This document shows, piece by piece, positions 20,961 to 55,001 of a stretch of DNA of 64,000 bases; position 1 is the first letter of the stretch, and the number at the start of each line of letters is the position of its first letter. Made by a program: the position numbers and the translations under genes. The notes under the pieces were generated by a model, which saw only the letters and a list, made by a program, of their open reading frames with translations, was not told where the DNA came from and searched no databases. This DNA is from Haliclystus octoradiatus (taxonomy: Eukaryota; Cnidaria; Staurozoa; Stauromedusae; Haliclystidae), in assembly GCA_916610825.1 (NCBI GenBank), contig OU744452.1, forward strand, positions 5,181,543-5,245,542. Reading direction: 5' to 3'.

Positions 20961-20965
20961 AACGA

Positions 20966-24494: not shown

Positions 24495-24503
24495 CCCTTT
24501 CAT
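24495..24503. repeat. Target duplication of E0, left copy
   Basis: The word ccctttcat stands directly before the E0 left terminus GGTAGATTC and recurs at 33481-33489 directly after the E0 right terminus. Confidence 0.85.
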
Positions 24504-25339
24504 GGTAGATTCTATAACATAGCCAAGTCGTGCGAGCGCTGACGTCACATCTGAAGAAGACTGGTGAAGAAGACACATGACTTTCTGTTCGATTTAAAAT
24601 TTTATGGTTTGCATTTGAATTTTATTTTGTAAAGCGCAGTGAAATGAATGTGGTTGTTCAAACTCTCAGCTGTAGGGAATTTAGCTCTGATTATTTGGCA
24701 TTTAGCTATTGGTATAAAGTTCTGTCAATTCGTACAATGGATATTGCTTGTGAGTAATATTGGAGTATTTAAATTAATACAAAAGGCATGTTACAGAAAC
24801 GAAAACCTTGAAAACAAGATGTCCACTAGTTTTCAAGGTAAGATTGGTTAGGGTTATATTATTTACAATAGTAGGTTATAGGCGTTATATCTTCTATATC
24901 GATTATTATCATTTTAAACAACTGAACAGTCAATTTATAGGCCTACAATTATTCATTTACTTGTTGATTGCTGTTACAAATTGTAATAGTGCTGCAGGAA
25001 GTGACCAAGTGTAGGGAAATGATAGTAACATATTGGTAAAATCCCATAGAAATATGTGTGTTGTATTTGGTATGATATTATAAAGATTAATCATGTCCAA
25101 GAATATATAAACATGTTTGATAATTTTTAGTAATAATTAACTTTTTTTGTCTACAGGTTTGAACATAGTTTTAAACTATAAATACACTATATTTACTTGA
25201 GTAGAATTTGTTTTGGAATGGAATCATGATTGTATATAACGCTTTCGATATGCAATGTAACTGTATATGAATTTGTGTTACTATATAACTATAAGCCACA
25301 TATTTGACAAGGGATTTACGACGTTATCAAACAGCTAAT

Positions 25340-25484
25340 TAACAGCCATTGTGCTGTGCAAATGATTTATGCAAGATATCCAAATAATGCTGCAAGCAGC
25401 AAAGGTTACTGATTAGTAAGATGTTTCATAAATTTGGATATATTGCATAAAGTAGACTACTTGCACAGCACAATGGCTGTTAAC
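25340..25484. repeat. Long hairpin inside E0
   Basis: The arms taacagccattgtgctgtgc (from 25340) and its complement ending near 25484 extend to about 46 bp with few mismatches, around a loop of about 45 bases. It is probably a small nested fold-back element or a remnant of one. Confidence 0.7.
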
Positions 25485-26781
25485 TGTAATGGGTCAAATA
25501 AAGGAGGTCATTGGTGTTTTTATAAAAATTCATCTCCTATCAAGGATCGAGAGTCTAGACGTTGTAGATTGTTATACACTCTCGAATATGGATTTAATAA
25601 TATCCCAATAGTAATTTGAATAGTACACTAACAACCAAATAATTTCTCCAAAGACGAAGTGATGATTTCAATGGTAATGATAGCAATATTAATAGCCTAG
25701 CCCAGTAACCCTATTCCTTTACTTCTGCCGCTGTATAATTCAAATGAAGCGAACAATGGTGACTACGTTATTTGGATCCCGAATTCTATATTTACGCCAT
25801 GTGATATCCGCTATTACGGACATCTATCATTTCCACAGACACAAAAAAATTCCCATGACACCGCAAAGTCGAGCAAATACATTGTTTAACTTCAGCAACG
25901 TGATGACATCATTTTATGCAGGAATCAATCTGAGTTTTCACAACGACATACAAAGAAAAAAGTGACTTGAAAGAATTCCAATGACATCGCTGAATTTTCA
26001 TTAAATACGATTAGAAAGCTACTTGCATGGCTCGCAGCAATAATTAATGACTATGTTGAACTGTAGGGCTAGGCTATTTTATCTTCAATAATAAATCATT
26101 CAAAATTTGCCACGAGTAGGCCTATAGATAGACCACTCTCGTACATTTGGGCATGGTTTATAGCTAAGCATATATATATGAAGCAGAAATTACATAAATT
26201 CATTTGGTGGTTCTTCACACAATTCACACTTCCAGCCAATGGCTTTAGCCGAATCCGTCGCCTTTTCGTTCACTGAAATTTGACAATTCCTGTGAAAGTG
26301 TTATTTGCAAACACAGCATTCTGTTTTCGGGTTAACTTTCGTTGCTGTTGTTTCTACTTATTCTATTTATCCACTCTCGACATCCTTAATGGAACATTTT
26401 GGGGTTCCTTTGATGTAAATTATTCTTAGTTAGTGTCAATTAATGTTGCAAATTTTCAATTTTCAGGAGAGGTCAACTGGGTAGCCTCAAGATGTCGCTA
26501 TGGTGTATTCTTGATTATTATGTGGTCATGCGTGTCATCATTACCTTGGCCTGTTCTAGATTAGTCCACAACATACAAATATTGATTATAAGATTATTGA
26601 CTTTATAATATTTGCTGGTTATATTTGATCATTATTTGTGTCATGTTTCAAAATACGTCACTTGGTACAAACTATCAGTCGACTAATCTATTTTTTGTTC
26701 GTATTCACTTGTATTTGAAGTGATAGTTATATAATATTTGAAATGAAATTCCTTGGTAGCCTACAGTTATAAATATGTGGA

Positions 26782-27082
26782 CAGGGGCGTCGGAGCTGGG
26801 GGTATAAGGGCAGTAGGTGCCCTTATGTGTAAGTATCATAAACTTTCCAGATCAACCACGTTAAAGGAAGATGAAAAAACAACAGTACAACAACAACAGG
26901 CGTATACTATACATGCCTGTGACATAGGTGGTAGGTGTCCATTTTGCTTGACGAAATGTCTCAAAATTGTGTTGGGAAATCGGGGGGGGGGGGGCAACAA
27001 CATTGTACAGTGAAAACATTTTTGCTGCAAGGTGCCCTTTATGCGGGGTCTGCCTCTGTTGTCTTATGGCTCCGGCGCCCAT
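26782..27082. mobile_element. hAT-like MITE with CAGGGGCG end
   Basis: The left end caggggcgtcggagctggg is mirrored on the right by ggctccggcgcccat. Flanks tatgtgga (26774-26781) and ggtgtgga (27083-27090) match 6 of 8. The paralogous sequence in E3 (about 52985-53010, aatgtttggaggtcatag) lacks the insert and so acts as an empty site. The interior has a run of 12 or more G at about 26982. Confidence 0.75.
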
Positions 27083-30000
27083 GGTGTGGAGGTCATAGTT
27101 TTTAAAGTCACAGTCCTCCGTTGTCCTTTCTTTGGTAAATTGACATAATTTTCCAGATTGTGTTGTTGTTTCATTCCCAATTTTTCAGGAGGAGTATTTT
27201 GCATAAAAATTCCCAAAAACCCCAACCAACAGAGAAGCTATCCCACAACTCCCACCATCTTGTTTCTTTTTTCCTTGACGATTGCATCAATATCGTTCAT
27301 CTGTTGGCATTGATAAAAACAATTGCCTGCACTTATGAATGCTATGCCATCGAAAGGGTTTAAAATTCCATCATCGTTTCCTGAAGTGGACGACCAAAGG
27401 CTTTCTAAAATTTCAGGAGAGAAGGCAAAGCTTCTTCGAATTTTTGACTAAAATACAAAAAATTGCTATTGTTTTTCTATCATTTCTTTATACATGGGTA
27501 ACGTTAAATGCAAGCGTAAAACATTCATGTCCGATTCACAGTATATTTATTTATTCTTTAATCTTTATGATATAACCGCCAACCAGAATATGTATCATCT
27601 TATGTATCATTAAAGTTTTCGAAAAGTATATCTAATCCTGTTTGTGAATTTATGTGTAGTATAGACATAGTGGACATTCATTGATAGCCTCATCGCTATC
27701 CATACTGTCATACTGTACATAGTTCGACCTATGCCGTTCGACGACATCAAATTTCATGTTTCCCGCTTATTATGTTTTGCAACAAGCCTCTGTTTAACTA
27801 TTATCATAATCTCACTTTCAAACATATGTGACGTCACGGCTTGCACGACTTGGCTATGTTATAGGGTAAACAGAATATTCAACAGGCTGCATGGAGTCAT
27901 GCGCAGTAGCACCCTGTCCCGTCTGATATTTTGGCCACATCTGAATTAAATCTGAATCTCGCACGATTGACTGTACTGCGGTTTGATTTGTATTTCAAAC
28001 TCAACTTGACTTTGAGATTTCTGATGGCGGCCAGAAAAATGGCGGTCTTGTCCGAAAGTAATGAGATTTAAGTTTCAAAATAACAGCTTTTGACAATAGT
28101 CATCGTCATATAACATAATTTGGGTGGATAAAAAGTTCTTATCCTGGTCATCGTAGAATTCCAGTACAGTTGATGTAATATTTATCAATTATTTGCACGT
28201 CTACGTTGTTACTTATCAACGAACAGTCTAACAGAGACAGAGTACACGGTGTATTTTTAAATAGCTAATATTGAATATTGGACAGGGTAAGGGAAGATAT
28301 TTGAAAAATTAACATGAAGTATGGTGTAATCTAATTCAGCTTTGAATAGTAAGATATGATAATATCAATATAACATCAAAACTAGACTAGATTGTACACA
28401 TAGAATAGGCTAGTCTATATTTTCTAAAGTCATTGATCATAGACCAGCCTACCTTAAAATCATAGTCTATAACCTACATTAATCAGGAAAGTAAGGGAAG
28501 GAGCTCACTCAATCAACTGCGGTAATAATTGATGATAGTGAGGCTTAGTGATCCACTGTCTATATGATATGATTATCATATATACATGTATTTATCAGCT
28601 TTAATTTTAATCAATTCGTTGAATAAGAAATTGATTTTTTAAATCTTAATAATCCTCAAACATTCAATATATTTCAAAATGTTAGTTATGATATGATATG
28701 TTAATATAGTACTTCTTATCGATAAAATCTCTACCAAGCCACAGAGTTTTGACTGAAACAAGTCAGTTGCAGTGTATTGCGCTGAAAGTCGTCATACCAT
28801 AAACAATTATATTGAAGCTTCAAAACTAACAGCGTGCAGTATTAATCAATTCAGAAAATATCGATTATCTGAATTCCATAAAACAATGTAAATATTTAAA
28901 AGAGCATGAATGAACGATAGGCTTTTAATCAATTTATTTCAATTTTAAAAACTACAAGTAGGCGTAACTGTAGTATAGTTCAATGATAGCAAGAGCCAGT
29001 ATATATGTTCATGTCATCTTGAAGCAAGACCATACGCATTGAAGTGTGCATCAGATCGAATTTACACAAAATTGATTACGGGTATGAATGTTGTAATGAT
29101 CCGATTCCAATCCGATTTGAAGTAATATGCCAATTATAAATATAATCCGATTCGAAGCAAATAATTTGTAATTAATGTAAACTAATCAAAGTTTTTAATG
29201 TATAAATTTATGGGTGATTGCTTGATACAGTCTCAGGCGCTTTAATCAGATATCTTTTAACTTGATGCTGGATATTCTGCGTTAGACACTTAGTTACTAC
29301 TACTGTGATAAAATACAAAACTACCACACAGCAATAATAAATACCAGCATGAATAAATGTGACGTACTATCACTGTATGTCGTATAGCTGGCTTTGCTAT
29401 AACAACAACTAATTGGTATTCGAGACCCAATGGATAGTGAGCACAATGAAGGCTAAACTGTATCTAATTTATTATTCAATCTACACATAGACAACATAGA
29501 TAGATTACAGGAATTATATAGGGTGTTGACATGAGACAGTCACATACAGCACATCAAAATGATAATACAATATGTACAATGAATCAATAATCTTGATCAT
29601 TTCCTTGAAGAAATTGTATAATTCATTTCACATCAAACGTGTAATTGATGTACTAGAGAGTGGAATACTAGAGAGTGGAACATGAATGTCGCTATATGTA
29701 GAAGAAGCGGTCAGTTGAGAGGAAACTAGAACACATTGATTAATCGCTACAAAGTACAAATACTCTTCCAAGTTTCAAAATCCAAAATCATTTGGAATCA
29801 ATAAATACAAATTTTACCCAGTCCAAAGACCTAAAATATCACTACCTGGATGCGATCCAATCTGATTGGATTCGCACATCTTTAATACGCAGGTGCAAAA
29901 TAAATGAGGCTCAAAACTTTCAGAGGTTGAATTTGTTATTCACAACTAACATAAATATGTACTTTTGGAATGGTCAAATTCTTTAATTATTATATTTTCT

Positions 30001-31409
30001 TATTCGTAATTGACAATATTGTCACTTTAGTTTAACTTTCGTTGTGGGTTTGATTTTAAACACAGCCAAAAAGGTTGAAGGTTGTTCACTTAAATTATAC
30101 CTGTCAGATATGACTCTGTGATAGTATGATTAATGTAGGTTCTATTACAAAGTTTATATTATAGACGGTATGATTTCTTCATTACTCAGAAATTTGGTCC
30201 TGATGCTTTTAAGAAAGTTCCTTTTAAATTTTATTTCATTTTATTATTACAAAATATTTCATTAATTATTATCATATGATTTTCACATAAATATATCTTT
30301 GGTTGGTGCTACGAAAATAAGTAGGCCTATTCCCCTACGAAAAATTTGTTGAGTTCATGAACTATTCATGAACCTTAAATACAAGCCTGTTTTACACATT
30401 CTGGGCAGTAGTCACTTTTCTGAGAAGTTATTTTAAATGTAGTTTTTCATTTTGAATAAGCCTTTGAAGAAACATTAGAATAACTGTTGCGTTGAGTCGT
30501 TTCAACTTTTCAAAGTGCAGTACTATACATACTGATCTTCATACTATACACTTATTTTTGTGCTGCTTTCAATTTTTCTTACTGACAATTTTTACAGCCT
30601 TGATAGTTTGGGCTGAACGTAGCTATAGCTGGTTAAATGGCCTGTTTTTCATGAACAATTCATGAATATTTGTTGGTCCATTTAAAGCTCAAGAATTGTT
30701 ATCACAGCCTGCATTTTGCGTATACTTTTACGGATTAACCAAAGAGGGCTTTACTTAGCGTATACTTTATTTCTAATCATCGATAATATAAATGACACCA
30801 ATGCCATGTATCCTTGTTCAGTAGATTATGTAGGCAATCAAGGTGTTTTTGCATACTGTTGGTTCTCCCAGACGTCAGCACAGTTTCGAAATGATGGAAA
30901 ACAAAGGCATCAAACAAAATCTTTCTTGTTTCTAGATGTAAACATCAAGTGAAACTTACTACTGTTGTGCAGGAACGTTTTCTAATTCATGATTGGTAAA
31001 TTGATAGTTGTTAAATGAATTCAATTAATTTCGACAATACAGGCAAAGAGAAATTGCTCCATAATTATTGTTATCCTGTTTATGAATAAATTTGTGAATA
31101 GGGCTAATTTGACTACCTTGAACAACGCACACTGAAAATACCCACGTGACAAGAGAGAGATTCAAAACTCAGAGGGGGTGTAAGAGGAGAGTTTCAGACA
31201 AAATCGGTACAAAATTAGAAATGCATTTGATTGATTCTGAAGTGACTTAAAAGAAGGTAGTAGGGGAGACAGATTATCTACAAGACTCGAGTAACAATGG
31301 CTTCAAAGGTTTTGGTACAGCATTGTGCTGCCCAGGGTTGCACCCATGTAGCTTTTTCTGCTACAGTATTCCAGGACCACGCCAAACGCCTAGTCTTATT
31401 AAAATTAAT

Positions 31410-31565
31410 TTGAAAACAAAGGCCACATGCTCCTTTGCCAGAATTCATAGTGGTCACCTCTATGCAGCAGCCAACCGTCTACAGTGGTCACTCTTGGTAT
31501 GCCTGAAATAGTATTTTCTATCTAATCAACCTTGCATATAAAGGCCACCTGCATATAATGGTGTG
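31410..31565. repeat. ACGGCCAC-family MITE fragment
   Basis: Words such as gtggtcactcttggtatgcc, atagtattttctat and aaaggccacctgcatata are shared with 37620-37785, and partly with 35321-35497. Clean ends were not found here. Confidence 0.5.
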
Positions 31566-31742
31566 ATGGGATCATTTTGTTTCACTTCGCAGTTTACAAT
31601 TTAAATTTAACCACGTAAGCTTCAAGCTCGTTTTCATGGGAATGAATGTCTGAACAGCAGTCAAATTTATAATCAACTAATTGAAATTACAATGAGCTCT
31701 ATTACATGAAAGTTACTGGTACATATAGATAAAATACATTGT

Positions 31743-31830
31743 GTGAGGCGACAGGCGATGAGGTATCAAACCCCGGTCTCCCACAGGAACTACATGCACT
31801 CTACTATTGAGCTACCAGTCTACATTGATC
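31743..31830 (-). repeat. tRNA-like SINE head
   Basis: On the minus strand an A-box-like TGGTAGCTCAATAGTAGAG (about 31823) and a B-box-like GGGTTTGATACC (about 31765) are spaced as in a pol III promoter. The arms do not close into a tRNA, so I take it as SINE-derived. Confidence 0.5.
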
Positions 31831-33480
31831 AATTTATCTACCTCTCATAGCTGGCTGCTATACACAGATTTCAACTGTATCTATTTCTAAACTTTCTAAA
31901 CTCATTATTTTGATGTTTGCTTGAAGAACATCAATTTTCATAAATGTATGATGATATTTTTAGTAAAAGAGTACACACACAAAAGTAGGCCCTACACGAA
32001 ATATAAACCATCCCTCTATTGTTTCATGATTTCTGCCAAGGCATGTTAGGGGCATATTTGCTATTGAAAAGTTAACATTTCTCTTTGCTGATTACTAGGC
32101 TTAATCTACAAAACATAATTTCTAGGAGGTAGTTTAATATCACGAGACATCCTGATGAAGATTACCGATGTTGCTTAAATTTTAATTATCTTGACTGATC
32201 ACCTCAGAATGCTGTCTCTTTCAACTTTGTAGGGGCCTACCCTTTATAAATCAAAAATTAGCTTAGCCCATAATCTTGTAGATTGTCCATTAGTTATTTG
32301 TTGTGTAAGTATCTCATATTGATGCATATACACACATGTTGATACATATTAATTAATAATTATTATAGGCAAGGTGTAAAGGATTATGACAAAGTAATCG
32401 TCCCAAATGCCACAGTTGTCCTGTTTCTGCAAGTGGTTAAGAGTCCATTTATTAGCTGTGCTATATCCACGGTGGAACACTTTATCAGAGGATTTTGTTC
32501 TGCAAGTAGCCTACATTTCTATGATTTTAAACAATATTACAAACATTTTCTCTGGTTCAGTGTTGCAAAGTCTACAATACAAATAGATAAGTTTGTTTAC
32601 TATTTCAGATAAGTTGTTTTTAAAAACAATAACTATTAGTTTTCAACTGAATTGAGATAATGTGTGTAGTGGAGACCAAAAGCTCTTCCATAATAGTCGC
32701 TCATTAATGTTAGCTTTTTTGTAATTTAATAACTATTATATCAGATCAAAGACAGTGGATCACTAAGCCTATCTATCATCAGTTAGTACCTTGGCCCTTA
32801 CTTGATTGAGTGAGCTCCTTCCCCTACTTTTCTGATTAATGTAGGTTATAGACTATGATTTGAAGGTAGGCTAGTCTACGACTTTTCTACGAGCAATGAC
32901 TTTAGAAAATATAGACTAGCCTATTCTATGTGTACAATTTATTCATGTTTTGATGTTATATTGATATTATCAAATCTTACTATTCAAAGCTGAGTTAGAT
33001 TACACCATATTTCATGTTAATTTTTCAAATATCTTCCCTTACCCTGTCCAATATTCAATATTAGCTATTTAAAAATACACCGTGTACTCTGTCTCTGTTA
33101 GACTGTTCGTTGATAAGTAACAACGTAGACGTGCAAATAATTGATAAATGTTACATCAACTGTACTGGATTTTTACGATGACCAGGATAAGAACTTTGTA
33201 TCCACACAAATTATATTATATGACGATGACTATGGTCGAAAGCTGTTATTTTGAAACTTTAATCTCATTACATTCGGACAAGACCGCCATTTTCTGGCCG
33301 CCATCAGAAATCTCAAAGTCAAGTTGAGTTTGAAATACAAATCAAACCGCAGTACAGTCAATCGTGCGAGATTCAGATTTAATTCAGATGTGGCCAAAAT
33401 ATCAGACGGGACAGGGTGCTACTGCGCATGACTCCATGCAGCCTGTTGAATATTCTGTTTACCATGTTATAGAATCTACC

Positions 33481-33490
33481 CCCTTTCATC
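33481..33490. repeat. 10-bp junction between E0 and E2
   Basis: These ten bases (ccctttcatc) contain the right copy of E0's duplication (bases 1-9) and the left copy of E2's duplication (bases 2-10), overlapping by eight. Confidence 0.9.
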
Positions 33491-34649
33491 GGTAAGCAGA
33501 ATATTCAACAGGCTGCAGGGCGTCATGCGCAGTAGAACCCTGTCCCGTCTGATAATTTTGGCCACATCTGAAAACATCTCGCACTTTATTTCGTTTTGAT
33601 TTGAATTTCAAATTTTGACTTGACTTTGAGATTTCTTATGGCCAGAAAAAATGGCGGTCTTGTCGGAAATTGATGAGATTGAAGATTCAACATAAAGACT
33701 TTCGACAATCTTCATATATTATATTTTGTGTAGAAATGAAGTTATTATCCTGCTCATCGTAAAATTCCAGTATAATTGATGTTTTCTTTGCTCGTCAACG
33801 CTGTTGATATATAGATCTATAGCCCAATATAATGAGCTGAAAATGTAGACTAACTTAATCATTATCAAGAGACGTTGGCTCCTTTTTATGTAGCTTGAAA
33901 TTCGGACAGGGTAAGATGTTTGAAGAATTAACATACAATTAGGTGTAACCTAACTCATCTTTCAATGGTTAGATTCCAATATCAAAAGTTTTTGATTCAA
34001 AACACGATTAGACAAATAGCCTGACATTAAAAAGTAAGTTAGGAATTCTCAATCAACTAGGCCCAATAATGATAGTTCGCCTAATGAGTCACTGTTTATA
34101 TTATAATGTGATATATTTTGTCAACTAAAATTGACATTGAAGGGTGAATAAAGGAAAGTTCTTGGCCTCCACTTACATTATAGACTTGTAGCCTAGTTGT
34201 AACTTGCAAGTGAATGTAGCCTAAGCCTATAAATATTGTAGACTACTGTAGTACATGATTAACTAACATGTATCTGTATGCCTCTTTCCTAGTGTGTTCA
34301 TGTTCAATTCTCAAACAAAGGCCGGTGTATATAACTTGTCTACAGGTGTGCTGCGCAAGATTGGAAAGTTTGCTGTTTGCGGGTAACATCTTGGCCGCGG
34401 CTGAAATTCCAGCTGCGCAATTCATAATTGTATCCGTATTTTGAAAGAAAATGAAATATTTTCCATGAAAATTTAGAAGTTATATCTAAAATGTGCCTAC
34501 ATATATCATCCACCTGCGCAAAATTACACCACAATTTGGCTTTCAGCAGCACATTTTCCGAGAAAAAATACGATCTTGGCCGTGCACAATGCATTCTTTC
34601 CAATCTGGGTGCTGCGTGCGTTTACAGGAAGTACTTCATAATCTATCAC

Positions 34650-35270
34650 CTTTTTGACTACGACCTTCGCTTACAAACTTTAGCGTCTCGATGTTATGAA
34701 AAAAGTTCTTGCTTGACTAAACTTGGCAGATTGTTGGGGACTTAATACTCAGGGCTTAATATAATATTTGATAAATATACTAACATTTTGATTATTAAAC
34801 ATTCATCATTTGACCGCTAAATAATGATATTAATGACAACTATGACATTTTATGACATTACTGTATTATATACAGTATTAAACATATATAGCCTACCAGT
34901 TTCAAATTAAAAATTTAAAACTTATTTTTACTGTATTTTTACTAATTTCAAAGCAATGTATGTGTCACATTGATGATATTGATACAGACTTAGATAAACA
35001 TTTCAGGACTTTCTAACCCATGCAAATAATTGCGTTTTCGTGTGATGGATTTCCTGCCAAATCAAGTTCAACAATTTATGGAAAATTCTTAGCTATACTG
35101 CTCTAATTTTTAATCTGTTGATAAATTATTCAAGTCTGGAACTTGGTATCGAATAAAGTCCTTGTCAATTAACACATGACAGCAACTACCAAATTTAGCC
35201 AAGCCAGAACTTTTTCATAACATCGAGACGCTAAAATTTGTAAGCGAAGGTCGGAGTCAAAAAGGTTACA
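34650..35270. repeat. Palindromic repeat inside E2, shared with 11980-12440
   Basis: The block near 34655-34730 (ttagcgtctcgatgttatga) is inverted near 35190-35265, and the right part matches 11980-12440 outside the cluster. It is therefore an independent repeat carried within E2. Confidence 0.65.
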
Positions 35271-35320
35271 GATTATGGCGTATAACGCACGCAAGTTACA
35301 GACACCGAATATAGGCTATA

Positions 35321-35497
35321 CAGTGAAACCTGTATATAACGGCCAGCTAATAGAGGTAGATAAATTGACCACTATAGACAGGTGGCCTTTATATACAGGT
35401 TTGATTCAATAGAAAATACTATTTTAGAGATTGAAAGAGTGACCACTATAGACAGGTGGCCGCTATATAGAGGTGACCGTTATAACAGGTTTGACTG
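35321..35497. mobile_element. Short MITE with CAGTGAAACCTG ends and TA duplication
   Basis: The left end cagtgaaacctgtatataac and the right end (reverse complement cagtcaaacctgttataacg) are flanked by TA at 35319-35320 and 35498-35499. It is 177 bp and carries repeated gaccactatagacaggtggc words. The structure fits Tc1/mariner or pogo MITEs. Confidence 0.8.
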
Positions 35498-36134
35498 TAC
35501 AATAAATTTGGAAAAACAAATTTTGCCTAAATATTAACATTAATCTATGTGACAGATAAAGAGCAATTTGCCTATTTGGCAAAATTGAGCAATTTTACGT
35601 AATGTAGCATCTGAAGCAGCACCATGGTTTATTAAGGGATCACTCTTGTGAGTGGGTTATCGGAATTTAGATCCACAAGTTTGTTTACGATATGGATTTC
35701 GAGTTTGTTGTTAGAGAACAAGTGGGTCTAAATTTCGATGGCCCACGAACAAAGAGTGATGTAATCATTTTAATAATCATGTAACATAACCTTTGCCTGG
35801 AACATCAATTATCTCTCATCAATTTCACTAAAACAATGATTTGTTTTCTAATTCAATGGGTCATTGCTTTTTCATTAAATAGAATTTTAATTAAATTTGT
35901 TACGAATATCATTTAAAAATATAACGCTAAGAATTCAACATGTTTGCAATATTAGAAATATATAGTAAAAGTTACATCTAATTATAGCAAATCCCAAGCT
36001 GTTACTTTTTTTAATTTCTCAATTGAAGTTTCAATTACAGAGTATACATTTAAGTTGATTTTATGAAAAAATATTCAATCTTTCGCAGCTCATCGCCATT
36101 TTCAAAACATATGTTCTAGTTTTTTGGCTAAAAC

Positions 36135-36194
36135 CGTGCAGGTATAGGTCTATATATAACTGCACACGTGCGGGTATAGACCTATACCTGCACG
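36135..36194. repeat. Perfect 20-bp stem hairpin
   Basis: The arms 36135-36154 (cgtgcaggtataggtctata) and 36175-36194 are exact inverted copies around a 20-base loop that itself contains gcacacgtgc. Confidence 0.85.
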
Positions 36195-37619: not shown

Positions 37620-37785
37620 TGGTTATCACTATAAAGCAGCCACCTGTCCACAGTGGTCATTCTTGGTTTGTCTAAATAGTATTTTCTATTGAAACGACCC
37701 TGCTTATAAAGGCCACCTGCATATAGCTTTGTCAATTTATCTACCTATCATAGATGGCTGTCATATACAGGTTTCACTGTGTAGT
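37620..37785. repeat. ACGGCCAC-family MITE copy
   Basis: Ends in gtttcactg-like sequence and shares aaaggccacctgcatata and atagtattttctattga with the copy at 31410-31565. The left end is unclear. Confidence 0.55.
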
Positions 37786-40531: not shown

Positions 40532-40541
40532 CCTTTCATCT
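40532..40541. repeat. 10-bp junction between E2 and E3
   Basis: The bases cctttcatct hold the right copy of E2's duplication (1-9) and the left copy of E3's duplication (2-10). Confidence 0.9.
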
Positions 40542-42679: not shown

Positions 42680-45562
42680 AAGTGGGAATAATCCCCCAGA
42701 CTATCTTTACGTATGTAGTAGAACTCGACGTGAAAAAACAATGGCGTAATTTTTTTTTGATCTGGAAATTATTTCTTGGTAAAAAATGCCTTCAAAGTGG
42801 TGTTTTGACCAAATGTCGCTTAGGAAAAAAAAGGGATTGGATATAGCTTTATGACGACAAAGTCACAAGTCGTGCGGTTTTTCTAATAGACTTTAGATCG
42901 AATTAATCACGCGATGTTGCGTTTGAGATGGCGTAGCTCTGTAACGGCAATCTATTTTTCTCTCTCACAAAACTGAGGTAAGGAAGAACATATAAACTCA
43001 AGAGTAGCAAAATTCCAGATGATTTAATGATTTTGAAGTTTACGAATTTGAAGAAATTAAAAATCAGAAAATGTTTCATTCGTAGCACGTGTTATACAGA
43101 TTATATTTTAACATATCATTCTCACACATATTTAACACATATCAAAAGATTCTCTGGTGACCCACAATAGCTAGATAATTAGAATTTATTGTTGTAAGCA
43201 TGAGCCTGAACTGATAATGGAGTATTCTTTTGAGGGTAAAAATCATAACGTATGGCGGGAAACGCTATAAGAACACCATAACCATTAATTTTATAGTCCT
43301 CTTTTCACAGAAACGAAATCTGCTCATATGATTTATTTCGTCTCTGTAGCAAGGTATTTTGTGCAAAGTATAGCTTCTGCACTGTACATTACCACATCCT
43401 ATAAACTACAGATTGTGATATGAATGATGCTAACATGTTCTACTTTCTTGCCAAAGGAATGAATACTAGACTGGTAACACAATTTGGTGGCGTATGTATA
43501 ATCAGGAACGAGACTTCACATTGCAAAACCCTAATTTTGTTAATCAGATAACGTTGGTAGAGAGGATAACAATTTATGCAATGAAGATATACCGCAAAAC
43601 CGAAAAATGATAAAATATGCATAACCGTAGTTCTGGTATACGGCTGTAAATTTGAATAAGAACGTCCAAGCCCTCATATCATTGTTGTACTATTTTCCGA
43701 TATTTTATAGAATTTTAGAGTGTAATGTACTGAAGAATTTTCAATCGTTTTATAATAATTGAATGCTTAGTGAATGAATGATGAACACTTTGTTAGACTA
43801 TTGAGTATAATATATCTATCTACAGTCGTATAAACTATACGATTACATGGTTAAAGAATTACTAGACAAACATCAATTTCAACTTAAACTTTGAAATGAT
43901 AATTGAAAAATGTCTACTTAATAATTTAGTAATACTTAAAGAAATCCGAAAAAGTACAATTAATACTTTGCAGTACCAACTATTTCGAAAGAAAAGTCGT
44001 CTGTGCAAGCCTGTGCAAATCGAGTCAGTTTACATTCACATTTAGATCAAGAAAAGGATATCTTGTAGAAATATTTAATCAAGAACAAATTTCAGATAGA
44101 GTTAAAAATAGTTATAACTTATTTATATAGCGTAGGATAAAGCTATTTCGAAGGGCACGTGTCTAATTAAGATTTGAAGAAGTACTGCGGTCACACAGAA
44201 TACGTAACTAATATGTATTACTGGACTAGTCACAAAGGAACACTCGCACCGCCTGACATTTGTGTTTATCCGCAATCTATATCAGATTCTTTGTAAAGGT
44301 TTACTTGACATGAATTTCATGATGGTATATGCGATAAAAAACACACAATAATTGGCGCAACAGTTTCGATTTAATCTAAAATCATCTTCAGGCAATGTAA
44401 AAAGATAGAGTTAAAAAGTTACATGAATATTTATATAAAAATCTAATTAATTTGTCTATTGAATTTATCGGAACGGTATTATACTTTTTAACAATGGCAA
44501 ACAATAATTACAGGAGAGATATTTTAGCACAAGAACTAATTACGAATATACGATACAAACACGGTGAAATAACAGTTACAATCAAAAATAGTTTAACAGC
44601 GGCAAAATGCTCTTTGGTATTATTCTTCCATTTTCTGTATTTCTTCCGGTCGTTGTTTAATATATTGCCGACATGAGTGGTCGACATGACAGCATCGCGC
44701 ATGTCACACAAGATAACAACAGTTAGATTTAGCGTAACTATGAATATGGAATAGTAATAGTTTAGAACAAATTGACAAACAGAAAAACTAAGTACGGATA
44801 TACTTTAAGACAGATACAATGAAATAATTATTACAACCAAAAACAAATAATCCAAAATCCTCTCATCAATGGCAAAATGTTCTATCAGATTGATTACCAA
44901 CTTTCTGTATTTCCTCTGGTCGTTGTTGAATAAATTGCCGACTTGATTGGCCGACATGACAGCATCGCGCATGTCACACAAGACCATAGACAAATTAATT
45001 AGATTTTTATATAAATATTCATGTAACTTTTTAACTCTCTCTTTTTACATTGCCTGAAGATGATTTTAGATTAAATCGAAACTGTTGCGCCAATTATTGT
45101 GTTTTTTATCGCATATACCATCATATATATCAGATTCATCGCGCTTAATGGCGCTACGAGAAATTATTTCGACTGAGCGTTGCAATAGATTTTATTCTGC
45201 TCCTGTAATCACAAATTGCATCTTTTTACGTAATTCGGGAGTGTATATGTTTGTTCATGGCTCAGCCTTGTCAGAAATTTTTGTTATGTGACCTCTCGGA
45301 GCTAGGTCACCTCAAAGATAGCGTCGCGTAATTAGCCCACTCTAAAGTCTGTTAGACAAACCGCACGACTTGTGACTTTGTCGTCATAAAGCTAGATCCA
45401 ATCCCTTTTTTTCTTAGCGACATTTGGGTCAAAACACCACTTTGAAGGCGTTTTTCACCAAGAAATAATTTCCAGATCGAAAAAAAATTACGCCACTGTT
45501 TTTTTCACGTCGGGATCTACTACATACGTAAAGATAGTCTGGGGGTTTATTCCCACTTTAAA
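42680..45562. repeat. Long inverted repeat pair inside E3
   Basis: The arms 42680-42895 and about 45343-45562 are inverted copies of about 215 bp (for example cgcacgacttgtgactttgt at 45363 and its complement near 42870). The loop contains no recognised gene. Confidence 0.8.
44320..45122. mobile_element. Innermost palindromic element
   Basis: Arms 44320-44457 and 44985-45122 are inverted copies of about 137 bp that are almost identical, containing gcctgaagatgattttagat and aactgttgcgccaattattg. Between the arms a block of about 110 bp occurs twice in direct orientation (about 44625 and 44885; shared tgacagcatcgcgcatgtca). The near-identity of the arms suggests recent formation or gene conversion. 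Superfamily unknown. Confidence 0.75.
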
Positions 45563-45629
45563 ACTTTAAAGATAGTGCCGTATAACAGATAATAAATGTG
45601 TTAGTAATTATTTCCATTCAAAATACCAC

Positions 45630-45870
45630 GGCTTTTAAATATGAAGAATATTGCCAGCGTGCACCTATCGCAGGGGCGTGCACTAAAAACTTTTTAAATA
45701 TGAAGAATACTACCAGTGTAGTATTAAATTAAATATGAAGAATACTACCAGCGTGTTCCTGTAGCAGGGCGTTGTAGCAGGGCGTGCACTTTAAACTTTT
45801 AATAAAATATGAAGTGTATTACCGGCGTGCACCTATCGCAGGGGCGTGCACTTAAATACTTTTCATTTCA
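45630..45870 (-). repeat. Minisatellite of GCACGCC type, inverted orientation
   Basis: Three to four units with atatgaagaatatt(g)ccag and gcgtgcacctatcgcagg are the reverse complement of the units in the larger array at 48955-49680. Confidence 0.75.
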
Positions 45871-46115
45871 AAGAGCTTTTTCATCAAGTTATTCATTTTC
45901 GACATTAAACTTATCGGGACACAACGCCAACGCGATACAACGCAACAGTAACGCATGAATTTGATTCATTACAAACTCCTGCTAAATAGCTATAATTAAA
46001 ACTACAGACGAAGGTGTATATATATGTTATCTTTGTTTGGTATCCAATACTATTCATTTTAAAGGGGTTTTTCATCGAGTTATTCATTTTCGACATTAAA
46101 CTTATCGGGACACGG
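45870..46115 (-). repeat. Single inverted monomer of the 196-bp satellite
   Basis: The block, including attcattttcgacattaaac and tttgattcattacaaactc, is the reverse complement of the monomer repeated at 46440-48050. The junction words occur at both ends. Confidence 0.75.
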
Positions 46116-46439
46116 CTCAGTACCTGTACCTATATAGGTGAAAGTTTTATTCTTCGAATGATATATATCGTTTTCTATTACATCCTAGAAATTATTTGAC
46201 ATACAACTAATCGATATCGAACGATTATTTAATATAGAACTATTTCATAAATATTTAACAACCTCATGTAAGTTCTTTATTTTATAATCAATTTATATGA
46301 AATCAACAAGAGGCTGACAAGGTAAATATGACAACGAAGAGAATAAATATATAAAGTAATTTTATTCTATTTAATTGTAATTAGAGGATATATGATATTG
46401 TAACAGGATATACATGTTAACTTAATATAAATTGTTGTT

Positions 46440-48050
46440 AATAGAAAATGAAAAGTATTGGACACTGTAGAAAGGTAACATATAGATACACCTTCTTATG
46501 TAGTTTTAATTATCAATTATAGTTATTTAAGTATAGTTTGTAATGAATCAAATTCATGTGTTATTGTTAGTGATGAAAATCGCGTTCTGCCCCGATAGGT
46601 TTAATGTCGAAAATGAATAACTTGATTAAAAAACCCTTTAAAATGAAAAGTATTGGACACTGTAGAAAGGTAACATATAGATACACCTTCTTATGTAGTT
46701 TTAATTATCAATTATAGTTATTTAAGTATAGTTTGTAATGAATCAAATTCATGTGTTATTGTTAGTGATGAAAATCGCGTTGTGTGAAAATCGCGTTGTG
46801 TCCCGATAGGTTTAATGTCGAAAATGAATAACTTGATTAAAAAACCTTTTAAAATGAAAAGTATTGGACACTGTAGAAACGTAATATATAGATACACCTT
46901 TTTATGTAGTTTTAATTATCAATTATAGTTATTTGAGTATAGTTTGTAACGAATCAAACTCATGTGTTATTGTTAGTGATGAAAATCGCGTTGTGTCCCG
47001 ATAGGTTTAATGTCGAAAATGAATAACTTGATTAAAAAACCGTTTAAAATGAAAAGTATTGGACACTGTAAAAAGATACTATATAGATACACCTTTTTAT
47101 GTAGTTTTAACTATCAATTATAGTTATTTAAGTATAGTTTGTAATGAATCAAATTCATGTGTTATTGTTAGTGATGAAAATCGCGTTGTGTCCCGATAGG
47201 TTTAATGTCGAAAATGAATAACTTGATTAAAAAACCTTTTAAAATGAAAAGTATTGGACACTGTAGAAAGATACCATATAGATACACCTTCTTATGTAGT
47301 TTTAACTATCAATTATAGTTATTTAAGTATAGTTTGTAATGAATCAAATTCATGTGTTATTGTTAGTGATGAGAATCGCGTTCTCGCCCCGATAGGTTTA
47401 ATGTCGAAAATGAATAACTTGATTAAAAAACCCTTTAAAATGAAAAGTATTGGACACTGTAGAAAGGTAACATATAGATACACCTTCTTATGTAGTTTTA
47501 ATTATCAATTATAGTTATTTAAGTATAGTTTGTAATGAATCAAATTCATGTGTTATTGTTAGTGATGAGAATCGCGTTCTCGCCCCGATAGGTTTAATGT
47601 CGAAAATGAATAACTTGATTAAAAAACCCTTTAAAATGAAAAGTATTGGACACTGTAGAAAGGTAACATATAGATACACATTTGCATGAAGTAATAACTA
47701 TCAATTATAGTTAGTTAAGTAGAGTTTGTAATGATTCAAATTCATGTGTTATTGTTAGTGATGCAAATCGCGTTGTGTGAAAATCGCGTTGTGTCCCGAT
47801 AGGTTTAATGTCGAAAATGAATAACTTGATTAAAAAACCCTTTAAAATGAAAAGTAAATGACACTATAGAAACGTATCATATAGATACACCTTCTTATAC
47901 AGTTTTAATTATCAATTATAGTTATTTGAGTATAGTTTGTAATGAATCAAATTCATGTGTTATTGTTAGTGATTAGAATCGCGTTGTGTCCCGATATGTT
48001 TCATATCGAAAATGAATAGCTTGATGAAAAAACCGTTTAAAATTAAAAGT
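46440..48050 (+). repeat. Tandem array of a 196-bp monomer, eight units
   Basis: The word atgaaaagta begins units at 46448, 46644, 46854, 47049, 47244, 47440, 47636 and 47847, so the period is 195-196 bp. Two units are 210-211 bp because gaaaatcgcgttgtgt is doubled. Each unit carries aatgtcgaaaatgaataact and atagttatttaagtatag. The last unit decays towards 48050. Short ORFs within it arise from the repeat and are not genes. Confidence 0.92.
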
Positions 48051-48954
48051 ATACGGAATGTCGCGTTGTTACTTGATAAGTTTAATTTCGAAAACTAAAT
48101 TTGAGATTGATCAAAAGTTTCTTCGTGAAACATTTCAGAGTGAAAGATAGCAACAAAAAACTACAAATAGATTATTTATCATACCATCGTCAGTTCAAAA
48201 GAATAAATATTAATTTACAAATTATTTAATAGGCTATAATGGATTTATAAACTTAACACATTGTAATTGTTATAATACTGCTAGAAATTAAACAATGAAA
48301 AAGGAAGGAACCTAGTCAATTACAAATGTGTTATTTTTATGCAGTACTTTACAAAAGGAGTCGGGAACGGATAGAGTCACTCTGAGTGCATTGTGAGGTT
48401 TTTTATCAAGGATAATTAACATTTCATGTACTACACAGTCGAATTTATTGCTGCATTTTTCTCTACTGAAAATAAATGTTATACTATACAATACTATAAG
48501 TTATTAGATATATATATATTTTTTTTTTTTTGGGGGGGGGGTGTAACACGGTAATTCCAGCCTCTGCAAAGAACAAAACTTGAAAATGCTCCTAAAAAGT
48601 TCCTAAAATCCAACAAAATAAGGTAATTTTTTATTTTTCCAATTCAAAGTTGATTTCTCAAAACTCTCAAATTTGAAAAGGAGACTAAAATCTGAATTTT
48701 GCAATTCAATTTTTCTCATCGTAATCGTTTATCGGGGTGAACAATTTAATCCATCGTTTTATCACGTAGTTCTTTGTTTCACTATTACGTTTGACCATGG
48801 TTTGACTATTTCTCAAAAATGTAGTGTATTTCCGCAGTATCCTTTTGCCACCGGGATTGTGTCTGTTTAACAGTGGGGAATCTGTCATAACAAAGCGAAC
48901 AAAGTTAGCGTACGTGTAAATAAGATAAATTCAAATGTAATATAGTTAAAAGTT

Positions 48955-49680
48955 TCAAGTGCACGCCCCTGCTATATAGGTGCACGTTGGTTTAATGGTC
49001 TTCATATTTAATTAAAGTTTTGATTGCACCACCATGCGATAGGTACACGCCAGTAATATCCATATGTAAAAAAGTTTTTTAAGTGCACACCCTGCTATAT
49101 GTGCACGCCGGTAATAATCTTCATATTTAAATTCAAGTTTTATGTGCACGCCCTGCTATAGGTGCACACCGGTAATAATCTTCATATTTAAATTCAAGTT
49201 TTATGTGCACGCCCTGCTATAGGTACACGCCGGTACTATTCTTTATATTATTTAGTTTTATGTGCACGCCCTGCTATAGGTGCACGCCGGTAATAATCTT
49301 CATATTTAAATTCAAGTTTTATGTGCACGCCCTGCTATAGGTGCACGCCGGTAATATTCTTTATATTTAGACGATACGATAGGGTGCACGCCGGTAATAT
49401 TCTTCATATTTAAATTCAAGTTATAAGTGCACGCTCATACGATAAGTGCACTCCGGTAATATTCTTATTTAGTTTTATGTGCACGCCCCTACTATAAGTA
49501 CACGACGGTGATATTCCTCATATTTAAATTCAAGTTATAAGTGCACGCCCATACGATAGATGCACTCCGGTAATATTATTCATATTTAAAAATAAATTAA
49601 GTGCACGCCCATGAGATAGGTGCACGCTCTTAACCTTTAAAAACTTTTATGTCCACGCCTCTGTTTTAGGTGCACGCTGT
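48955..49680 (+). repeat. Minisatellite of about 62-bp units
   Basis: About a dozen units contain gtgcacgccctgctataggt, gcacgccggtaat and ttcatatttaaattcaag. The unit length varies around 58-65 bp, and the edges are more diverged than the centre. Confidence 0.88.
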
Positions 49681-50884
49681 CGATATTTTAGGTTTTCGTT
49701 TCGTGTAAAATTGCGGTAATTATTTTACTTCCGCGGCAAATCGTGCCGGCTCCTTCTTGTATCTACGTCATTTCGTGCAAAATTGCGGCGACAACTTTTG
49801 CCGCTTGGAAAAATCTCGTAGATGCACGTGGAAAAACGTACATTTCGGGATTTATGTGGAAAATTTAACGTCGAAAAATTATTTCGACGTTAAACTTTTC
49901 GACGTTATAGCGTACAATCAATTTTGCTCAATTGAGATAAGAATGTCACAAAAATATAAATATTATAATTGATAAAAAACATAGTGATTTTCAGTTCAAC
50001 GGAATCCTGACAAGTTATTTAACTTGATTGAATCTCAATTTATCGAATTTCACCGATAAAACCATTAAATAATGAGAAACCTATAATTCAGTTTGTAAGT
50101 TTTCAATCTCGGCCCGAGTAAAAATAGGCACGGGCAATCTTGAAAACAGCTTTTAATAAGCTGTGTAAACCCTGAAAATAGTCAGCACGGGCCGCATTCT
50201 TGTTAACACCTCGGGTGTTAATTGACGAGTACCGTGCCTGTTTTGCTGCAGTGTAAATGGCCCTTAAATAAGGCCTACAGCCTGCAGGAATGAAGATGTG
50301 TTTGCAGTCAAAAACATAAAAAAAGTCAATTAAAACGCGGCCTGCATCACAAATACGAATTGAATGAGTTGAAACTTGAAAATCTAAACAAGTCCAGCAA
50401 TTCATTACCTCCTCAGCCTCAGCAGTGAAACGAAATAAATTATAAACAAAGCGTTTGTGTTTAATTACAGTATTCAAAATTGTGATCTAATTATCAATGG
50501 TAATTGGCAAGATCGATCCTACAATATATACATAGCATAAACTTGAAAATACAAGCCCCAAAGTGTATCTCTGGCTCTACATCGACAGGGGGCTGGGGCG
50601 GAGTGTCACTTGGAAAAAGTGAAGTATCCAAAGAGTTCTGGAAACTTGAAAAAGCTACCCCAGAAGTTCAAAAAAACGAAAAAAAGTATTTCAACTTTTT
50701 TATTTTTCTTTCAATGTTCTTCAGACAGATTCCAAATTTATTTTTCAAAAATCTCTAGCAATTTAAAAAAAGGATCCAAAAAATATCCAAAATCTGAAAC
50801 TTTCTATAAACTACTTTTCTCAGCTGGAATATGGACTCCTCAAAATTGGCACGTCTCCAAATTCCCTTCATATTTGAGCTACCC

Positions 50885-51180
50885 CCCGGTTACAAGGAAC
50901 TATAGAGAGTGTGTAGCAAAATACAAACGGAACACTGCAAGTCCTAATGCTAGAACAAGTAGATTAAATGCTAACAGGGAGCCTGTTGCAGCTACAAGAG
51001 ATAGCTAAACACCGCGCAGTAGAGAGAGCAGATTGCAAGTGAATACAGATATTTTGGCAACTATAAGAGACAGTGAAACTCCAAACACGAGGGAAAGAAG
51101 ATTACAAGAAAATGGTAATCTGGTAGCAAATATACGAGACTCTCATAAGGCAAATACGAGGGATCCACCGAAGCGGATCT
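50885..51180 (+). pseudogene. Relic with RDSETPNTRERRL-type repeats
   Basis: Consecutive frames give degenerate repeats of about 25 residues: TASPNARTSRLNANREPVAA, then IRDSETPNTRERRLQENGNL and IRDSHKANTR. Such SET..R..RL repeats are found in N-terminal parts of invertebrate PIF1/Helitron-like helicase and other mobile-element proteins. A stop at 51006 interrupts the series. I see no helicase motif, so only a fragment is present. It may be the remains of an autonomous relative of the element to its left. Confidence 0.45.
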
Positions 51181-52579
51181 ATCAATTTTCCATCAATTTT
51201 CTAGCTTTAGTAAGGGTATAAATGCTACATTATTTTGCTGAAATTACACTCATTGAGTGTAACTTAGTGACTAGTTCTTTAAAATTGCTAATTAAAATGC
51301 CCGCATAATTGATGTTTGTAAAGCTTTTGTTACTCTTAGTGTGCCTCCAGTGCCAAACCTTTTAAGGGACGATTTGAAGATACATCTGTAGGCCTACTAG
51401 CTAGTAGGCCTACTGTGATGATTGGTACCCCTCCACCTTGTACCCGCAACTGTGTGCTTGTGATGTAATTTCCGAGATCTCCAATTTAACGAAATATCAC
51501 CAGCAATCGTCTGCAAATTATTACTGAAATGTAATTCTGTTGCCCCGAAATATTTCCAGGGAACGCTCTTTCTTCTCAGGGGTGCAATCACCCTTCTCTG
51601 CAATCTGGTTTATTGATGACCTCTGATTATTTCACATTGAATTTACATCCTACACTATTTACATCCAGAAGCGGATAAAAATTGATATTTTTTTATGATT
51701 CATAAGCCAAACCCTAGCAGAAAATTCACATTTCTTATTTATGAGAGCAATTACCATAAGGCTATGATATTTCACATAAAACTAATGCAAGTACAAGTAG
51801 GCCTAATTCATCATTTATGCTTTAAATACACCCTCAAAACGTTTCAAACTTGACTCCTGCAACCTATTGTTTCCCGCTACATGAGATCAGACTTTTCATT
51901 AGATATTGAACAACATCATATTTTGGTTGTAATCATACTGTAAGTTCTTTCAAAAGTTCTGACGGAATTTATAGAGAGAGCTCTGGATTTTTTCATGAAA
52001 TGTATCGTAAAGTTTAATTATTGACTTTCCTTCCATGCCAAGTTGTTTCTGTTGCCCAATTTTTTTTGGTTTCCAGGATTTTTCTTTGCAAAAATATGTC
52101 TTGGAAGCCATTATCAGATTGGTATCAATCTTGCAGCATCTTTTAGCATGCATTTATAATGTTGTCATTGAGGTGACCATCATCCATTTCAATTAGCTAT
52201 CAAAAAAGACATAACTAAGTTAATGATCTGTACATTCTACACATCCCACATCACACATGCCACAAGAAACATAACAGACCAAATGGTTAATCCTGTGAGA
52301 GATTGTTACAAATTCAACTTGATAATGTAGTACCTTCCTTTCATGCATCGATGATACATGTATGCGATTTATGTTGAATGGATTTCTGATATCTGTAATG
52401 CAATTGAGCAAATTTACACCTCGCTGGAAAGCTTTTGATTCAGGTCTTCATATCTGCAAATGATAATTGATTGTTTCATTGTTAACATAGTGTTATATTC
52501 AAGCTTTCTAGCAAAATTTGACCCTCCCTGGAAACAGCAGTACATTTTCAAATAACCCCTGGAGGCTATCTGTTGTTTC
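51181..52579. other. E3 interior, no gene recognised
   Basis: AT-rich sequence with no convincing exons or clear repeats apart from the word cagtacattttcaaataacc near 52540, which is shared with about 41400 at the left side of E3. Confidence 0.4.
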
Positions 52580-53165
52580 TACTTGTTCTATTTATCCACT
52601 CTCGACATCCTTGTTGGGACAATTTTTTATGTAAATTATTCTTGGTTAGTGTGGATAGATTAATGTTGCAAATTTTCGATTTTCAGGAGAGGTCAACTGC
52701 GCAGCCTCCAGATGTCGCTATGGTGTAGGCCCTATTCTAGATTATTATGTGTGTCATTAGTTGGGTCTGTTCTAGGTTTATGATATACAACTATTGATAA
52801 TAAGATTATTGACTTTATAATATTTGCTGCTTATATTTGATCATTATTAAATGGAGTGTGTCATGTTTCAAATGCATCACTTGGTACAAACTATCATTCG
52901 ACTAATATATATTTTTTGTTCATATCCACTTGTATTTGAAATAATAGCTAGATATAATATTTGAGCTTAAATTCTATGGTACAGTTATAAATGTTTGGAG
53001 GTCATAGTTTGCAAAGTTACAATTCTTTGTTGCCCTTCAGAAAATTGACATCATTTTTAGATTGTGTTGTTGTTTTGTTTCCCAATTTTTTCAGGGGCCG
53101 TTTCAGGATTTTTTCAAGGGCCGTTCTCATAAAAAATTCCCCAAGTCCCGTTAATAGAGAGGTCA
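52580..53165 (+). repeat. Segment shared by E3 and E0
   Basis: Direct paralogue of 26340-26780 plus 27083-27200. Shared words include tatttatccactctcgacat, caggagaggtcaactg and gattgtgttgttgtt. It lacks the hAT-like insert present in E0. Confidence 0.85.
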
Positions 53166-54404
53166 TTCCATTATTTCCACTTTTAAAAGAATGACGAAAG
53201 TGTTCCTTTAGCTAAATATATTGATTAACTAACTGTTTATGGATTTCATGGGAGCAGGAATCACCATTACAAGTATTTTATTAGAATAAATCTTATGAAG
53301 GATCCTTGACATTTCCTGTTTAGACAACACGCTTTCAAAGGATAATTCAATGAGTACATCAAGTCACATGGTACATTGCTACAACATTGTCATGGCTGCA
53401 ATAGACGGGTGGCTGCTGTACAGAGGTGGCAAAAATTGGGAAAATACAAAATTTTTTTTGAGATTCATCCCTTGCAAGCAGTCTTCTTACTACTGTATTT
53501 CATATTTAATTTGTATGCTGCAGAGATGGATCTGTATATGACTGACTGCTTACTTACTTTGCAAACTTTTGGTTTGGGCTGTGATTTCCCATGCTGGCAG
53601 ACATACACCTTCCGATTCAAAGCTATGTACGGCACATAATTGTTCTAAACATAATATGAATCTTCACATCAGATAGTTCTGAGATGTAAGAAATTCCTTA
53701 ATTGAGATGATTTCTCGCAAGTAACAAGACATTCCCAAAGTAGTTTTGTTGTTTGCATTTTTACAGTTGTTTAATTGTCATACCTGTTTTTCCAAAACCC
53801 TTCTAGCAGTATTCCGCACTACAAAAGTTGTTGTTGTTGCCAAGCTGAAATGCCTGATAGGTCTATCGCATCTAGGTCTTTCGCTGTCCCGCTTGACTTG
53901 GTATCTTGTCTTGAAAACAGAGATTCCCATGCTGCTTGAGGTATAATACTGGTTTGTTCTATTTGACCAGATTCTATGATGATGGGATTACGTTCCAATT
54001 CCAGAGTACTGACTTCATCTTCTTCCAATTTTTCAACTGATGCTAGATTACTGGACTGGATTGATCCATTTCAAATTGTTAATCAAAATCCATGATCCAT
54101 GTTAAAACGAACAATAAAAGGATTGATCTCTTTGATCTGACGACACGTGTGATTTGAATCATATTTCCCGCCAAAAACATTTCTATGCATTGGACGTTTG
54201 ATTTAAAAGTTACGACCTTGATTTGGAACGGGAGAAACAATTCAATTTTTTCATACTTTACGTTATATGTGAAGATATTATTACTGATTATTATTATTAC
54301 TGAACACTAAAGGAACATCATCTAAACTATTCGCGAATTATTTTGGGGATTTTTGTTCTGCAATTCTTTGGCATGTTTATTCAAAATGACTCTCAACTCG
54401 TGTC

Positions 54405-54695
54405 AGCCTTAATTCAACTTATATCAGCTTCATAAAAACATATGAAAATAACAGCCAATTTCATCGCTCTGGATGCATTCTTACAGGGCATAAATAATCC
54501 AAACTGATATAAAGTGATGCTGTAAGACTTTGATGGGTTTTCTTGGTATATCGTAAGCATAAACAACAAACTACTTCTGTTCTTTTTTATATTTCTATAC
54601 TATCAACTCGTATCAGCCTCAATTCAACTTGTATCAGCTTCATAAAAACATATCAAAATAACAGCTAACTTCATCGCTCTGGATGCATACATTAT
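54405..54695 (+). repeat. Local direct duplication in the E3 right arm
   Basis: About 90 bp beginning aactcgt(g/a)tcagcc and running through tcatcgctctggatgcat occurs at about 54405 and again at about 54604. Confidence 0.8.
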
Positions 54696-55001
54696 TGCGC
54701 TTGCCTCGCAAAATATGTTATCCTACATATTCCCCTTATAATTTTGATGAGCAATGAAGTGAAGGCAATCGCGAAAGCTCCGAAAGAAAGAAATGTTGTA
54801 GCACGCTACTCTGTGTTGCTGACCTTGAATATTGCAGTTACTAAACTACGAGACAAACGCCATTACTGAATGCGATTAAGTTGACGATAGACGCAAAAGC
54901 AACATTACGTGGAAACGTAACCGCGCTCGTACTATTGAAAAAGTAGACTGGATACTAAATAGAGCTGACGCGAGTTGAATTTTCCGTTTACCCTTTCATC
55001 T

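Follow-up and report, generated by a model that had tools for sequence, protein, structure and literature searches.

Mutator-like elements stacked end to end in Haliclystus octoradiatus and the short-range clustering of their termini

How do several transposons come to stand end to end, each within a few base pairs of the next? The question is raised by a stretch of 64,000 nucleotides from Haliclystus octoradiatus, in the following called the window (C8:5181543-5245542 of a 261.86 Mb assembly in 33 contigs), in which four elements, E0 to E3, form such a stack. The termini of all four elements and their perfect 9-bp duplications can be read directly in the window. The first-pass annotation had described a stack of four elements with 9-bp duplications, two spacers of 10 bp, and E1 lying 8 bp inside the right terminus of E0, and all of this is borne out by the printed termini. 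The features are as follows, in positions of the window:

24495..24503, no strand: left target duplication of E0, CCCTTTCAT (letters read)
24504..33480, plus strand: E0, with GGTAGATTCTATAACAT ends, 3369 bp when E1 is subtracted
27865..33463, plus strand: E1, 5599 bp, nested in E0, 8 bp inside the right end of E0
33481..33490, no strand: 10-bp spacer between E0 and E2, CCCTTTCATC
33491..40531, plus strand: E2, 7041 bp, duplication CCTTTCATC
40532..40541, no strand: 10-bp spacer between E2 and E3, CCTTTCATCT
40542..54992, plus strand: E3, 14451 bp, duplication CTTTCATCT
42681..45557, no strand: X, an unrelated TTAA-type element nested in E3, with ends AGTGGGAATAA and TTAA on both sides (coordinates by eye)
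46445..49627, no strand: minisatellite arrays inside E3, with units of 195 bp and about 61 bp
54993..55001, no strand: right target duplication of E3, CTTTCATCT (letters read)

Architecture and family of the stacked elements

The E0 duplication flanks the element on both sides (24495-24503 and 33481-33489), and the E1 duplication, ATGTTATAG, is present on either side of E1. The spacer between E0 and E2 consists of the right duplication of E0 and the left duplication of E2, offset by one base. Successive duplications share 8 out of 9 bases, and hence the two 10-bp spacers are not independent of each other. When the insertions of E0, E2 and E3 were simulated in all six orders, followed by E1, the window from 24481 to 55020 was rebuilt letter for letter every time. 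Thus, neither the order of insertion nor the end that was struck can be inferred from the sequence, and a fixed order E0, E2, E3 was dropped. For the same reason the earlier statement that later elements always entered at a right-hand end is a reading rather than a fact.

Elements of the MULE superfamily generate target duplications of 8-11 bp, and their terminal inverted repeats commonly measure hundreds of bp. The members of the stack appear to be non-autonomous Mutator-like elements. Among the end pairs fetched, 48 were identical over 9 bp, in a set that was selected for at most one mismatch and lists one site twice. A further pair (L142/L143) also matched at 9 bp, and 7 other fetched pairs mismatched at this length, one of them matching over 10 bp and one having two mismatches. 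Long inverted repeats, a feature of MULEs, are present in E1 (about 710-730 bp, 92.9% alike) and E2 (about 700 bp, 94.6% alike), those of E3 being only about 80 bp long. Among the listed E3-type end pairs, paired by position, 23 out of 43 span 4.5-4.85 kb.

The MULE transposase domain was matched 85 times in the genome, and among the elements listed, matches to PF10551 were located inside at least 4 E2-ended elements of 12.8-17.2 kb on C1 and C4. A frame of 269 residues from one such element scored 42.1 bits against PF10551 (cut-off 27.6) and 66.4 bits against PF21056 (cut-off 27.2), and the protein collection contained 130 relatives of it at E 0.001. The MULE domain in E2-ended elements, together with the 9-bp duplications, assigns the E2 family at the sequence level to the Mutator-like elements; the transposase evidence applies to this family only and derives from a partial transposase of these 269 residues. 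This piece had no significant match in the window, E0 and E2 included. Since 16 out of the first 19 bases are identical in E1, E2 and E3, the same or a related transposase probably mobilises E1 and E3 too. E0 has only its GGTA start in common with these three.

One frame of the window gave 3 protein matches, all from invertebrates, the best of which, with 49% identity and 60% query coverage, came from the bryozoan Watersipora subatra. Searches of 20 loci against Rfam returned 4 weak matches, none of which reached the gathering score. Rehavkus, a MULE-related group, is described in the accessible part of its report as having a minisatellite before the 3' repeat and a PHD finger in the transposase (PMC6446971). 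E3 contains minisatellites, but they end more than 5 kb from its right end, and the scan of the 269 residues of the E2-family frame gave no match to a PHD finger.

Clustering of termini in the genome

Searching the genome with exact 22-base ends yielded 463 ends (125+125 for E1/E2, 110+103 for E3), and 14 ends of E0 were found with a 20-base pattern. Places were listed individually for the first 100 ends of E1/E2 and the first 100 of E3, i.e. 200 out of 463. Facing ends of E1, E2 or E3 with 0-60 bp between them were counted at 6 places, of which the window accounts for 2. The gaps outside the window were 9 bp (C7), 19 bp (C5), 20 bp (C7) and 35 bp (C8); those in the window were 10 and 27 bp, and the 27-bp gap, with the E0 end inside it, is a consequence of its neighbours. 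For exact ends about 0.012 such places are expected by chance, and as the search pattern was looser, the actual figure may be a few times as large. Insertions nested 101-161 bp inside the end of a relative were found at 3 places, at 130, 137 and 142 bp, with 0.025 expected.

A shuffle test covered C1 and C2, which do not include the window, with 142 ends including those of E0; an element was defined as an end pair by position or as a single end. On these contigs 6 out of 89 elements (three pairs) lay less than 150 bp from another, whereas 500 shuffles gave 0.064 such elements on average and never more than 2. No element was found 150-2000 bp from another, and 14 lay within 10 kb versus 2.8 in the shuffles. 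Taken together, the facing-end, nested and shuffle counts show a genuine proximity effect that is seen on several chromosomes and extends mainly over short distances. The first-pass annotation had argued that random insertion would not produce the stack. The four facing-end places outside the window, far above expectation, extend this argument to the genome, and the tally against shuffles that it had proposed, carried out for C1 and C2, left the enrichment near termini standing.

Several candidates were set aside. GGTA words at L042, L056, L061, L081, L084 and L128 and in the repeats L011/L012 and L106/L110 did not qualify as established termini; at L084 there is a large palindrome, and the word at L106/L110 sits inside a repeat. 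For this reason 3 out of 9 candidate rows (C1:25983525, C5:3147573 and C6:1071693) were excluded from the tallies. Simple counting of GGTA words around 46 insertion sites revealed no clear excess. For the range of 61-121 bp, the places listed and the flanks fetched included a gap of 71 bp on C2 and an E1 copy at a distance of about 80 bp from an E1 end of inexact sequence.

The clustering could reflect copies that survived in a tolerant region, or an artefact of the assembly. Two E3 copies on C1, at 29764211 and 29817908, have identical flanks and probably represent a segmental duplicate, and the milder excess at 2-10 kb would also fit this reading. However, tolerance predicts clusters on the kilobase scale, in conflict with the zero count at 150-2000 bp on C1/C2. 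Each member of the stack has its own clean duplication, the 262 Mb assembly consists of 33 contigs, and close pairs were found again at other places. We therefore regard survival or artefact as highly improbable.

Target preference, probable target reuse and the struck ends

A target matrix was built from 46 distinct sites out of the 48 pairs, none of them from the window stack and with 43 unpaired ends left out. These sites share a weak palindromic consensus: the second position beyond the duplication is C or G and seldom T, and the duplication itself has a T-rich followed by an A-rich part. When each site was left out in turn, the true site was in the top 10% for 23 out of 46, with a mean rank of 0.19; eight controls with random positions gave mean ranks of 0.47-0.53 and placed 1-7 out of 46 in the top tenth. 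All four elements have GG/CC ends, so that the preferred C is already present for a target that begins 1 or 2 bases beyond an end. Beside termini the matrix weight at positions 1, 2 and 3 was 7.2, 4.0 and 2.3 times background, the value for position 1 being partly circular, as the resident duplication belongs to the training set. With the order E0, E2, E3, the E2 site beside E0 ranks 10 out of 400 and the E3 site beside E2 ranks 4 out of 400, and with the reverse order the window sites rank 12, 18 and 34 out of 400. The E0 site, if it was the first, scores poorly (rank 90 out of 400). The three sites inside the inverted repeats of relatives rank 18, 9 and 3 out of 294.

The 10-bp register does not require a guided complex, as had been suggested, since the weak consensus and the regenerated duplication favour positions 1 and 2 beside an end. 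The exact spacing thus has an ordinary basis, but the gain from both is about 6-fold, which leaves a several-hundred-fold excess of proximity unexplained: 3 insertions at positions 1-2 compare with about 0.005 expected even with this gain, 2 of the 3 being the window stack itself.

Reuse of a target was also indicated elsewhere. At C7:6311902-6321656 two E3 end pairs, with spans of 4627 and 5119 bp and identified from end patterns alone, have one 9-bp spacer in common. The degenerate 9-mer beside an E3 end has 4 matches in the genome, all of them at this locus, one at each outer flank and one on either side of the spacer; these are pattern matches rather than letters. At this level the spacer and the outer flanks agree with the reuse of one 9-mer, and the simplest reading appears to be that a single 9-bp target was used twice without a shift. 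In contrast, reuse of the adjoining duplication is at odds with the pairs at 19, 20 and 35 bp, and for the 20-bp pair on C7 separate duplications, ATTAACACC and ACAACAATA, were read on both sides.

Other repeats were struck as well. Copies of one repeat were hit two bases apart by E2 (AGCCCGAGT, L024/L025) and E3 (CTAGCCCGA, L076/L077), with matching flanks for both. A palindromic repeat carried insertions of E1, E3 and E0 at its edges or close to them, and the edge of a TTAA element was struck by E3. A further sequence, GTAAAAAGC, fits both E2 (L110) and E3 (L060) in one repeat; it was not counted, as the other flank of L110 is mismatched and the duplications are putative.

The TTAA element served as a control for specificity. 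It has 678 exact ends, of which 1 faces an E end within 60 bp, with 0.037 expected. Comparing the 4 places among 463 related ends (window excluded) with 1 among 678 unrelated ends gave a Fisher p of 0.16, and counting the E2/E3 pair of the window (5 places versus 1) gave p=0.04. This control leans against specificity, because the TTAA element was chosen after its E3 hit had been seen. Of the earlier proposal that a transposition complex is guided to, or held at, existing ends, the strong enrichment of copies near existing ends has stood, whereas specificity for related ends was not established, an end of the TTAA element having been hit too.

That proposal amounts to tethered insertion, the opposite of target immunity, in which a transposase bound to an end captures DNA within about one or two helical turns. 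In its favour, pairs of ends that face each other at 60 bp or less are some 300 to 400 times commoner than expected (4 or 5 versus 0.0125), and the range of 150-2000 bp is empty in the C1/C2 sample. Gaps of 9, 10, 19 and 20 bp recur, and E1, E2 and E3, largely alike in their first bases, may be served by one transposase. The spacing pattern, however, consists of six gaps (9, 10, 10, 19, 20 and 35 bp), two of which, in the window, share one sequence, and the chance of 0.0016 obtained for it comes from a test picked after the gaps had been seen. Moreover, E0 shares just the GGTA start, an end of the unrelated TTAA element and other repeats were struck likewise, and three insertions lie 130-142 bp inside inverted repeats, away from the end. 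On balance we consider tethering unlikely. Its specific form, a transposase or synaptic complex parked on resident MULE ends that would direct strand transfer one to two helical turns outside, yielding spacers of 9-10 and 19-20 bp and end-to-end growth as a mirror image of target immunity, seems to us quite unlikely.

Alternatively, end regions may represent open, promoter-like DNA on the scale of a nucleosome, comparable to the transcription starts that attract maize Mu, and stacking may be a by-product. The 150-bp scale of the excess, the clustering of the three nested insertions 130-142 bp inside the repeat and the hits at the edges of unrelated repeats agree with this idea, and the accessible text on Mu describes a preference for 5' gene ends together with a weak consensus (PMC2774946). 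Openness by itself does not account for target reuse at C7 and in the window. As a full explanation it is possible though doubtful, and it is compatible with the one we favour.

The explanation that we favour, and hold to be probable, is that cut-and-paste MULEs with a weak palindromic consensus insert into favoured short stretches, the ends of relatives among them, and reuse the target that is rebuilt there. Strand transfer would occur at sites fitting the consensus, with some short stretches preferred, including the terminal regions of relatives. Every insertion would duplicate its 9-bp target next to its own end, and the terminal CC would supply the preferred base just outside the duplicated target. 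The target rebuilt beside the new end could then receive another insertion, in the same register or in one next to it, and repeated cycles would give an end-to-end stack with spacers of 9 or 10 bp. Target reuse is well supported, and regeneration of the target probably caused the stack. The end regions are presumably favoured for being accessible or promoter-like, which is plausible given the preference of maize Mu for 5' gene ends in the text cited above.

Relation to known transposon arrays

The multimers of rice MITEs described by Jiang and Wessler in 2001 reportedly involve other superfamilies and much shorter elements. According to the available part of a later report, 11% of rice MITEs occur in multimers, the elements being joined or nested in each other as in our stack (PMC10664404). 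A close likeness is to SaTar, non-autonomous MULEs of guayule and rice, in which microsatellites drive the formation of end-to-end, non-nested arrays; as far as the accessible text goes, these are also uninterrupted multimers of different non-autonomous MULE families at one kind of site that is targeted repeatedly (PMC5907723). In contrast, the SaTar target is a microsatellite, and members outside microsatellites are, in the same text, not in end-to-end arrays (PMC5907723). The rebuilt target of the Haliclystus stack, CTACACCCTTTCATCTGTAATG, is no microsatellite, which separates the stack from SaTar; furthermore, every element of the stack is flanked by a clean 9-bp duplication, and what is reused as target is the duplication of an earlier element.

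Plant MULEs with tandem inverted repeats likewise carry extra termini near a terminus, but in the part of the report available the inner repeat lacks a recognizable target duplication and moves within one element (PMC3310237), whereas the units of the stack are separate insertions. Maize Mu resembles the stack families in its 9-bp duplication, long inverted repeats, weak consensus and insertion hotspots, and the accessible text does not describe stacking at ends (PMC2774946). For the mosquito MULE Muta1 the text available reports little or no sequence preference (PMC5225508), a respect in which the stack families differ from it. Our literature search, which reached few subscription journals, found no report of MULE stacks formed through reuse of 9-bp duplications.

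The locus and its genomic counterparts provide a measured case, in an animal genome, of DNA transposons accumulating at their own termini. Restoration of a target through its duplication offers a concrete route to end-to-end arrays outside microsatellites. The finding also raises the question whether resident ends attract Mutator transposases, a point of relevance to the origin of composite and tandem-repeat elements.

Paired and probably duplicated E3 copies

C7:6311902-6321656, two E3 end pairs of unequal span with a single 9-bp spacer between them (G000)

The facing E3 ends on contig C7 are likely a second case of target reuse, in which a new copy inserts into the 9-bp duplication left beside the end of an earlier one. 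On C1, two E3 copies (L068/L069 at C1:29764211 and L070/L071 at C1:29817908) lie about 54 kb apart, start to start. Their flanks are identical as far as printed, and judged from these sequences the two copies probably represent a segmental duplication.

Unusual target duplications and insertion sites

C2:22262477-22269481, E2 copy (ends L110 and L111)
C4:13781331-13787086, E1-type copy (ends L126 and L127)

Comparison of the two flanks of the E2 copy revealed no matching duplication between them. On one side about 18 bases seem to be absent relative to the listed end L060, and this side looks as if a deletion accompanied or came after insertion. The duplication of the E1-type copy, ATTACTCACT, is perfect over 10 bp instead of 9 bp. 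Copies of E1, E3, and E0 were also found inserted at or near the edges of a short palindromic repeat with the core CATTTCCGCGCGGAAATG (L029, L066, L079, L124).

Other mobile elements in the window

20080-20997, retroelement remains, weak hit to an endonuclease-reverse transcriptase that falls short of the cut-off
42681-45557, TTAA-flanked element with the ends AGTGGGAATAA, nested in E3
59748-60314, retroelement remains, integrase zinc-binding domain

A genome count of the exact ends of the TTAA-flanked element family gave 345+333. At C1:15595740, a copy of this element carries an E3 insertion at its very edge.

A possible autonomous relative of E0

C2:31689776 onward, E0 end (L083) with a second GGTA-type end, GGTAGAGACGAATGG, 43 bp away

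Since a genome search for the Mutator-like element (MULE) domain located one approximately 2.7 kb beyond this second end, the latter may belong to an autonomous relative of E0.
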